DNA of 45,878 nt from Thermotoga sp. (GTDB lineage Bacteria > Thermotogota > Thermotogae > Mesoaciditogales > Mesoaciditogaceae), in the NCBI GenBank assembly GCA_020722015.1, contig DYLQ01000011.1, positions 1-45,878 of the forward strand, in the 5' to 3' direction. The position numbers and the translations under genes were made by a program. Shown in pieces: positions 18,706 to 22,742 of this stretch. A model generated the notes under the pieces. That model saw nothing but the letters and a program-made list of their open reading frames with translations, had not been told where the DNA came from and did not search any database. The stretch's first letter is position 1, and every line of letters begins with the position of its first letter.

Positions 18706-19175
18706 ATTTGGAACTTTTCTCTTAACTTGTCTTCCACCACTTGAGGAACCCATTGTTTTAATTCTCCTCCAAATTGTGCTATTTCTTTCACCATCGACGA
18801 AGAGAGAAAAAGAAACCTTATGTCTGTCATGAAATATATAGTCTCAAGGTCTGGACACATCTCTCTGTTTGCAAGGGCCATTTCAAATTCGTACTCGAAA
18901 TCCTCAACTGCTCTTAACCCTCTTATGGCTATTTTGACTCCATTTTCTTTCACATATTGAACAAGAAGTCCATTGTGAAGATCTACTTTGACGTTTAAAT
19001 TTTTCGTTGCTTCTTTTATCATTTCAAGTCTTTCTTCGTAAGAAAACAAAGATCTTTTTCTCATGTTGTTCATTAAAACGATGGTAAAATCGTCGAAGAC
19101 CTTAGATGCCCTTTCGATTATATCTATGTGACCATAAGTTATAGGATCAAAAGATCCTGGATATATGGCTTTCAA
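18702..19175 (-). CDS. coaD: Phosphopantetheine adenylyltransferase
   Basis: Adds AMP to 4'-phosphopantetheine in coenzyme A synthesis. The nucleotidyltransferase motif GSFDPITYGHIDI, the IRGLRAVEDFEYEF segment and the SSSMVKEI loop are all present. TTG 19175 overlaps the previous gene's stop (TTGA) and has AGTGAGGTG six bases upstream; it gives the usual start MKAIYPGSFDP at 157 aa. An in-frame GTG at 19184 is less well placed. Confidence 0.96.
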   Translation of the reverse strand: MKAIYPGSFDPITYGHIDIIERASKVFDDFTIVLMNNMRKRSLFSYEERLEMIKEATKNLNVKVDLHNGLLVQYVKENGVKIAIRGLRAVEDFEYEFEMALANREMCPDLETIYFMTDIRFLFLSSSMVKEIAQFGGELKQWVPQVVEDKLREKFQM

Positions 19176-19807
19176 TTTTTGCACCTCACTTGGAATATTT
19201 TTTTATCTTCTAATCTCAAACAAGTAAGATTTCCACCATATACGCATCCTGTATCAATTCCTATCTTATCACTTTCGATCAAAGGTTTATCCATTGGCGT
19301 ATGGCCGAATACAACTGTATATCCTTTTAATGGATTTTCTGAGTATATGAATTCCTCTCTTATCCATAGCATATCTTCCGCTTTTTGATCGGAAAGATTT
19401 ATTCCAGGTTTGACTCCTCCATGGACGAACAGATATTTCTCTTCAACATGGTAGAGTTTTGTCTTTTCAAAGAAATTCAAGTGTGCTTTCGGGATGTTTT
19501 CTATGTTGTTTCCATAACTTTCAAGTGTTTTTCTTGCACCGTTGTATTCCCATAAATCCCAATCCTCACGGCTTCTTGTTTTGTAGAATCTTTCGATCAT
19601 CCATTCATGATTTCCCTTTATGAAAATTGTATTTTTGTGTGTTGCAGAGAACCTTAAAATGAATTCAACAACTCCTCTTGAATCAGGTCCTCTGTCTATG
19701 TAATCTCCAATGAAAATAACCTTATCTTCCAAAGTTGGGTTTACTTTTTCGATAAGTTGCTTCAGCGAATCCAAACATCCGTGTATGTCACCTATCGCGT
19801 ATATCAT
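19172..19807 (-). CDS. Metallophosphoesterase (PrpE/ApaH/PPP-like)
   Basis: A calcineurin-like phosphatase with all metal motifs: GDIHGC (9-12 region), GDYIDRGPDSRG, KGNHEW and, near the end, FVHGGVKPG and FGHTPMDKP. This pattern fits the bacterial serine/threonine phosphatase and diadenosine tetraphosphatase group; which one cannot be decided. First gene of the 11-gene operon, with a GAGGTGAG ribosome site directly after an 11-bp inverted repeat. Confidence 0.88.
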   Translation of the reverse strand: MIYAIGDIHGCLDSLKQLIEKVNPTLEDKVIFIGDYIDRGPDSRGVVEFILRFSATHKNTIFIKGNHEWMIERFYKTRSREDWDLWEYNGARKTLESYGNNIENIPKAHLNFFEKTKLYHVEEKYLFVHGGVKPGINLSDQKAEDMLWIREEFIYSENPLKGYTVVFGHTPMDKPLIESDKIGIDTGCVYGGNLTCLRLEDKKIFQVRCKN

Positions 19808-19817
19808 TTTCTCACCT

Positions 19818-19861
19818 CATACTAATAATAATATATTTTTAGTATTTTTCTTATTAGTATG
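19818..19861 (-). promoter_or_regulatory. Perfect 11-bp inverted repeat in the operon leader
   Basis: CATACTAATAA at 19818-19828 is exactly complemented at 19851-19861, with a 22-nt AT-rich centre that contains -10-like hexamers. It lies just before the ribosome site of the 11-gene operon. It could be an operator or an mRNA hairpin gating translation. Confidence 0.5.
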
Positions 19862-19865
19862 TGTT

Positions 19866-20260
19866 GTTGAAATTGTTGAAAACTCATTTTTAGCTATATG
19901 GTCATTGACTTTTTGATTGTTGAAAACTTTGTTGAAAACTTGTTGAAAACTTTTGGTGGATAAAATTGTTGAAAACTCATTTTACATGTTGACAAGTTGG
20001 ATTGTGTATAAAAAGGCATGACCATTGATAAAATTGACATAAAAATGTGTGAAAAGTTTTCAACAACGGTATTTTTCTTATTTCACAAGGTTTTTGTGAG
20101 TTTTCAACAATCGACTGTTGAAAGTGTTGAAAACTTTTGTTGAAAGTGTTGAAAACTCATTTTTAGATATATGGCTATTGATTTTTTTGATTGTTGAAAA
20201 CTTATAAATAGACGATATCGTGAGATTTAGGGAGATATATATTTATATTTGGCAATAAAT
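19866..20260. other. Candidate chromosomal replication origin (DnaA-box cluster)
   Basis: This gene-free stretch holds ten exact copies of TGTTGAAAAC: eight on the plus strand (starting 19874, 19918, 19930, 19941, 19967, 20125, 20147, 20192) and two inverted (20056, 20100). The reverse complement TTTTCAACA is one base off the TTWTNCACA DnaA-box consensus. A perfect consensus box, TGTGTATAA, lies at 20003, and GGTGGATAA (8 of 9 to the E. coli box) at 19955. An AT-rich tract follows at 20200-20260. Genes diverge from this point over 10 kb leftward and 14 kb rightward. No dnaA or dnaN is in the window. A regulatory or partitioning site is the alternative. Confidence 0.55.
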
Positions 20261-20335
20261 CGCTATAATCTTCTCTAAAATGTTATAATTGTCAAAATTG
20301 AGTCTTTGATTAGAACTTGAAGTGCGCTAACATAA

Positions 20336-20362
20336 TTAGCAGAAGAGATGTTAGAGTGCTAA
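20336..20362 (+). promoter_or_regulatory. CIRCE operator for HrcA, left arm degenerate
   Basis: The right arm GAGTGCTAA is a perfect CIRCE half-site. Nine bases separate it from TTAGCAGAA, which keeps the first six bases of the left consensus TTAGCACTC. Position and spacing in front of groES fit HrcA control. hrcA itself is not in the window. Confidence 0.8.
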
Positions 20363-20384
20363 TTTGAAAGGAGGTTTTCTTGGA

Positions 20385-20663
20385 ATGAGTACGAAAACGA
20401 GGATTAAACCGCTTGGCGAAAGGATTTTGATCAAGCCACTGAAAGAGGAACCTAAGTCTGCCGGAGGAATAGTTCTTCCTGAAAATGCTAAAGAAAAGCC
20501 ACAGAGAGCAGAAGTCATTGAGGTTGGAACTGGCGACGACATCAACGTGAAAATCGGTGATGTGGTTATTTTTGCGAAGTACTCAGGAAATGAGATCAAA
20601 ATTGACGATGAAGACTACATATTGATCGATTGGAATGATGTTCTCGCAAAGGTTGAAAAATGA
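20385..20663 (+). CDS. groES: GroES co-chaperonin
   Basis: The 10-kDa lid of the GroEL chamber. IKPLGERILIKPLKEE at the N-terminus, the mobile loop around SAGGIVLPENAKEKPQ, and DVVIFAKYSGNEI are standard. ATG 20385 is the start because AAGGAGG lies nine bases upstream; an upstream TTG at 20364 is within that leader. It is followed after 16 bases by groEL, and preceded by a CIRCE element, so it is a heat-shock operon. Confidence 0.97.
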   Translation: MSTKTRIKPLGERILIKPLKEEPKSAGGIVLPENAKEKPQRAEVIEVGTGDDINVKIGDVVIFAKYSGNEIKIDDEDYILIDWNDVLAKVEK

Positions 20664-20676
20664 AGGAGGTAAATGA

Positions 20677-22296
<1,620 letters not shown>

Positions 22297-22391: not shown

Positions 22392-22742
22392 ATGGCGGAA
22401 GCAGGAAAAAAATATTGTGTGAATTGCGGCGCAGAAATTGACGAAAGGGCAGAAATATGCCCAAAGTGTGGTGTAAGGCAACCGGAAAGCACAATCCCAT
22501 ATCGCTCTTCGTTTCAAAATGAAAATGAGTACATTCATCATAAAAGAATAACGGCGGGTATTCTTGGTATATTACTTGGTGGCCTTGGAATTCATCAATT
22601 TTACCTTCATAACATCGGCTGGGGTATTTTGATGCTTATCTTTTGCTGGACGGGAATTCCGGCCATAATTGGCTTGATACAGGGAATACTTTACTTGACG
22701 GAAACAGACGAATATTTCGGGCGTGTGCACAATTTGATCTAA
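22392..22742 (+). CDS. Zinc-ribbon TM2-domain membrane protein
   Basis: A 116-residue protein. An N-terminal zinc ribbon (CVNCGAEID...CPKCGVRQP, residues 9-31) is joined to a TM2 domain with two membrane helices around residues 51-103, including the family signature GGLGIHQFYLHNIGWGILM. TM2 proteins are widespread in bacteria with no settled function. It has its own promoter and precedes the oxidoreductase gene by 16 bp, so the two may be co-transcribed. Confidence 0.86.
   Translation: MAEAGKKYCVNCGAEIDERAEICPKCGVRQPESTIPYRSSFQNENEYIHHKRITAGILGILLGGLGIHQFYLHNIGWGILMLIFCWTGIPAIIGLIQGILYLTETDEYFGRVHNLI

Follow-up and report, generated by a model that had tools for sequence, protein, structure and literature searches.

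What purpose is served by ten identical 10-mers packed between two genes that are transcribed away from each other? We addressed this question in a window (the whole stretch of DNA analysed) of 45,878 nt (45.9 kb), covering forward strand positions 1 to 45,878 of contig DYLQ01000011.1, assembly GCA_020722015.1. The host is an Athalassotoga-like bacterium for which a hot spring is named as habitat; its nearest named relative, Athalassotoga saccharophila NAS-01 (G001), stands at 74% by the phosphoesterase protein, which places the host in Mesoaciditogaceae, Thermotogota. The initial annotation had read the array as a replication origin, and this reading gained support from conserved position, canonical boxes in genus g3, a DNA unwinding element (DUE) with DnaA-trios, a dnaA locus free of box clusters and a local change of skew sign at the array. 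We conclude, at a probability of roughly 93%, that the stretch between the phosphoesterase gene and groES, at about 19815-20205, serves as oriC of this host. No paper on a Mesoaciditogales replication origin was found in the open literature, and the array provides a mapped origin candidate for a deep thermophilic lineage.

The host genome scanned comprised 1.93 Mb in 166 contigs. Ten genomes of the family were used, belonging to four genera labelled g1 to g4, and the array was compared in nine species of all four genera: seven from g1, g2 and g4, and two from g3 (G007 and G008). A further g3 genome, G006, stands outside this comparison, since its contig stops within the phosphoesterase gene.

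The array and its gene neighbourhood

The genes and the regulatory element bordering the array are as follows.

19172..19807, minus strand: ApaH/PrpE-type metallophosphoesterase gene, left border (open reading frame; bis(5'-nucleosyl)-tetraphosphatase models matched below cut-off)
20336..20362, plus strand: CIRCE-like element of groES, TTAGCAGAA-N9-GAGTGCTAA, outside the array (sequence, kept in relatives)
20385..20663, plus strand: groES, right border (PRK14533 co-chaperonin GroES above cut-off)
20680..22296, plus strand: groEL (TIGR02348 above cut-off)

Genes run away from the array on both sides, as had been described initially, with hslU/hslV, ddl, coaD and the divergent phosphoesterase to the left and groES-groEL to the right. 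Between 12759 and 22296 it is flanked by genes of protein quality control (clpX, clpP, trigger factor, hslU and hslV lie to one side of it, groESL to the other), and a 116-aa open reading frame without an NCBIfam match (22392-22742) follows directly after groEL. Rfam models gave no match over 19000-21000, and a promoter and terminator scan gave no useful excess.

Lying between divergent genes and bordering a chaperone operon, the array might be taken for a transcriptional operator of groESL and/or the phosphoesterase. This we find extremely unlikely: groES has its own conserved element at 20336-20362, which resembles the CIRCE consensus, ten sites over 330 bp accompanied by trios and a DUE are more than an operator would need, and the version of the repeat found in g3 is a DnaA box. 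In the CIRCE-like element itself the left arm is unusual, reading TTAGCAGAA in place of TTAGCACTC, and the ATAATTAGCAGA stretch is invariant among the aligned relatives.

The repeat TGTTGAAAAC occurs in ten exact copies within 330 bp of the intergenic region and nowhere else in the window, for the whole of which 0.23 copies are expected by chance; none of 100 shuffled sequences reached ten. All ten copies claimed in the initial annotation, on both strands and beyond chance, were thus recovered. Their density elsewhere in the genome, which it had proposed to count, is that of background: 10 of the 21 genomic copies are in the array and the remaining 11 occur singly on other contigs, a level comparable to the 14 genomic copies of a reversed control pattern. 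Pairs of TGTTGAAA at most 30 bp apart number seven in the array and two in the rest of the genome, and the box cluster is unique in the genome, as belongs to an oriC. The tandem pair at C103:10269 was rejected, as it resembles lysine-rich coding sequence.

From left to right the boxes are oriented + + + + + - - + + + (boxes 1 to 5 and 8 to 10 below are each supported by an exact copy and by the alignment).

19865..19873, plus strand: degenerate box TGTTGAAAT, abutting box 1 and forming a tandem pair with it beside the trios; kept in relatives
19874..19883, plus strand: DnaA box 1 (TGTTGAAAAC)
19918..19927, plus strand: DnaA box 2
19930..19939, plus strand: DnaA box 3
19941..19950, plus strand: DnaA box 4
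19967..19976, plus strand: DnaA box 5
20056..20065, minus strand: DnaA box 6, inverted; the aligned site has the lineage's exact box form in 9 of 9 species
20100..20109, minus strand: DnaA box 7, inverted; 44 bp from box 6 in 9 of 9 species
20125..20134, plus strand: DnaA box 8
20147..20156, plus strand: DnaA box 9
20192..20201, plus strand: DnaA box 10

Two consensus boxes had also been pointed out here, and both are present in the sequence (TTATNCACA at 20003-20011 and TTATCCACC, an 8/9 match to TTATCCACA, at 19955-19963), but neither is conserved in the relatives aligned. For this reason each was rejected as a part of the origin, and both are probably incidental.

Conservation and identity of the boxes

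Besides g3, the array was found at the matching place in six relatives from three genera. With the window's host included, the seven species of g1, g2 and g4 carry 7-10 exact boxes each in the same intergenic place, with strands kept and with recurring steps of 44/45, 11/12, 44, 22 and 45 bp; G005 has one extra, outlying exact copy on the minus strand. Over the nine species, identity amounts to 0.96 in box columns vs 0.67 in the remaining array columns, and 79% of columns are invariant in boxes vs 19% elsewhere in the array. The array is thus kept at one place across nine species and four genera, as befits an oriC.

The matching sites in g3 read TGTGGAAAAC, which is the reverse complement of GTTTTCCACA and contains the standard DnaA box TTTTCCACA; no copy of TGTTGAAAAC occurs in the g3 array. 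Exact TGTGGAAAAC boxes number seven in G007, where a few left-hand boxes are degenerate, and nine in G008. Nearly every matching position in g3 has a standard box; in G006, copies of TGTGGAAAAC are scattered. Because the g3 sites are the standard DnaA box, the repeat in the window is identified as a DnaA box too. The window's version, TTTTCAACA, differs from TTTTCCACA solely by C to A at position 6: the canonical consensus TT(A/T)TNCACA (TTATCCACA / TTTTCCACA) has C there, g1, g2 and g4 have A, and g3 has TTTTCCACA at the aligned sites, like the consensus. The earlier proposal of a variant DnaA box, made on the likeness of the 10-mer's complement to the consensus, is supported, the two being one base apart and g3 carrying TTTTCCACA itself.

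Repeated 10-mers do look like iterons, and an integrated plasmid or phage origin might have left such a series. The occupation of one chromosomal place in four genera already contradicts that explanation, no replication gene is present among the named neighbours, and the g3 boxes are the general DnaA consensus; its probability is practically negligible. Two more distant Thermotogota contigs lack the array, and the gene upstream of their phosphoesterase gene, as read by eye, is presumably topA; the groES neighbourhood is therefore not common to them.

Putative unwinding element, dnaA and skew

Next to the first boxes two further elements were recognised.

19820..19860, no strand: putative DUE, TACTAATAATAATATATTTTTAGTATTTTTCTTATTAGTAT (lowest nearest-neighbour stability; AT-rich in nine species)
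19852..19860, plus strand: putative DnaA-trios TAT-TAG-TAT (TATTAGTAT), 4 bp from the first box, TGTTGAAAT (aligned with TAGTAGTAGTAGG)

By nearest-neighbour energy, no 40 bp of the window are less stable than 19820-19860, which agrees with the AT-rich tract noted beside the repeats in the initial annotation. It adjoins box 1, and 9 of 9 species have an AT-rich tract at the matching place, so that boxes and an AT-rich DUE lie side by side as in an oriC. TAGTAGTAGTAGG, exact or slightly altered, adjoins the first box in species of g2, g3 and g4, and the trios in the window's own genus are degenerate. A basal unwinding system, by the published rule, has three or more NAN no farther than 16 bp from a DnaA box (PMC8287927), and TAT-TAG-TAT of the window offers just that minimum.

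A comparable arrangement is known in the same phylum: the 149-bp oriC of Thermotoga maritima has an AT-rich DUE with TAG repeats and TTATT beside a DnaA-box cluster, one box being inverted, and its three TAG repeats are essential for unwinding (PMC10316083). It differs by its five ACCTACCAC boxes, unrelated to TTTTC[A/C]ACA of the Mesoaciditogaceae array; the array here is not of this Thermotoga type, its boxes being TTTTCAACA. The basal unwinding system of Bacillus subtilis (boxes 6/7 plus trios) likewise combines tandem boxes, a short spacer and TAG repeats leading into an AT-rich region, and, given the generally known orientation of its boxes, trio, spacer and box follow one another in the same relative order as in the window. 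The window departs from it in one base of the box, in the split from dnaA and in the ten-box layout with an inverted central pair.

These known systems lead us to expect that DnaA binds at the array, that the DNA unwinds and that the origin fires there. The helix-turn-helix of DnaA domain IV would bind the ten TTTTCAACA-type boxes, while ATP-DnaA would nucleate on the tandem pair 19865-19883, extend from it onto the trios at 19852-19860 and open the adjoining DUE at 19820-19860, after which helicase loading could start bidirectional replication.

On the complete A. saccharophila chromosome the array occupies 516,163-516,444, 516 kb away from dnaA, whose position is base 304, and the 700 bp upstream of dnaA contain no TGTTGAAA or TGTGGAAA in the three genomes inspected (G000, G002 and G003). 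These positions agree with the initial suggestion of an origin next to groESL and away from dnaA, but this separation is not a peculiarity of the lineage: in the Thermotoga-type genome G054, dnaA lies near base 621 and the origin, also distant, at ~787 kb.

GC skew measured over 5-10 kb at eight loci was -0.12 to -0.20 to the left of the array and +0.01 to +0.18 to the right (weakly positive in G004), and AT skew likewise reverses there in the tested loci; the local skew follows gene orientation. The cumulative skew of A. saccharophila, calculated from 40 sampled stretches covering ~1/4 of the chromosome, is noisy and has its minimum near 355-440 kb, ~100 kb off the array, and its maximum near 800-900 kb, which would mean very unequal arms or a rearrangement. 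Fourfold-degenerate sites of the same chromosome gave no clear replichore signal. Taken together, the skew data lend weak support to a switch near 516 kb and argue, short of proof, against a switch point at dnaA (base 304). A distant skew minimum, named initially as an argument against the origin, was not encountered, but with a noisy curve and a sampled minimum ~100 kb away this check was not cleanly passed. No parS near-match was detected in G000 or G001, and the single palindromic one in G004 is on a contig other than that of the array, so no near-match that could mark the origin was found in the genus. This lack, the degenerate trios of the window's own genus, the dependence of local skew on gene orientation, the offset minimum and the fourfold sites speak against oriC.

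The offset of the sampled minimum is also what might be expected if the array were a DnaA-binding control locus, such as a datA/DARS-like or titration site, with the origin located elsewhere, and loci of this kind cluster DnaA boxes likewise. Such a role is very unlikely here: the array is the sole box cluster found in the genome, it adjoins a DUE with DnaA-trios, none was found in the 700 bp upstream of dnaA in the genomes inspected, and local skew changes sign at the array itself. All of these observations favour oriC.

Two versions of the box and the DnaA recognition helix

Judged from the aligned arrays, the family has two versions of the box, TTTTCAACA and TTTTCCACA, with all boxes of an array having changed in concert. 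In the tree g1 is sister to all the others and g3 stands beside g2 and g4, so the shortest history would be one change on the g3 branch, although the outgroups are distant and the T. maritima box is unrelated.

Both ends of the array are built alike.

19864..19927, plus strand: left outer module, box 1, 34-nt spacer, box 2 (repeat family D1; within-genome spacer identity 0.86)
20137..20201, plus strand: right outer module, box 9, 35-nt spacer, box 10 (pairs with the left outer module)

Inside each of the seven TTTTCAACA genomes the two spacers (19884-19917 and 20157-20191, enclosed by boxes 19874/19918 and 20147/20192) show a mutual identity of 83-94%, against 60-63% in the two g3 genomes, while outer spacers of less related species are mostly 50-75% identical. 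These identities suggest gene conversion between the array ends, a process which could help a box variant to spread.

The recognition-helix signature of DnaA is GRDHSSVVY in g1, g2 and g4 (ARDHSSVVY in G004) and RDHSSVMY in g3. The V/M site, four residues past the histidine, would correspond to position 438 by E. coli numbering. Within the compared part of domain IV, the sole g3-specific differences are V/M and I/L (EIG/ELG), apart from the C-terminal tail. In E. coli DnaA, helix 434-451 reads the TnCACA part of the box (PMC5742627). As g3 is one clade, shared ancestry could explain the match between V/M and box version, which may therefore serve as a lead to co-change, not as proof of it.

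That the array-wide switch between TTTTCAACA and TTTTCCACA was coupled to V/M, and possibly spread by gene conversion of the modules, is a tentative proposal to which we give slightly less than an even chance. If true, nature would here have recorded a joint change of code by an initiator and its origin. The evolutionary puzzle is how a multi-site origin can change its word although all its boxes have to fit a single essential protein. Sister genera retain two versions of the ten-site layout at one and the same place, and their DnaA proteins show few fixed differences in the DNA-binding domain, so a swap is directly testable in vitro; what should interest specialists is that the DnaA box differs by one letter throughout the array from one sister genus to another.

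The Thermotoga-type genome G054 differs in both partners. Its T. maritima-type origin with ACCTACCAC boxes (L211:1400-1700) is not at groES, unlike the Mesoaciditogaceae array, and lies beside genes which we read as an rpmF-plsX block; its domain IV signature is of a different type, NRSHPVVLDS vs GRDHSSVVYA.
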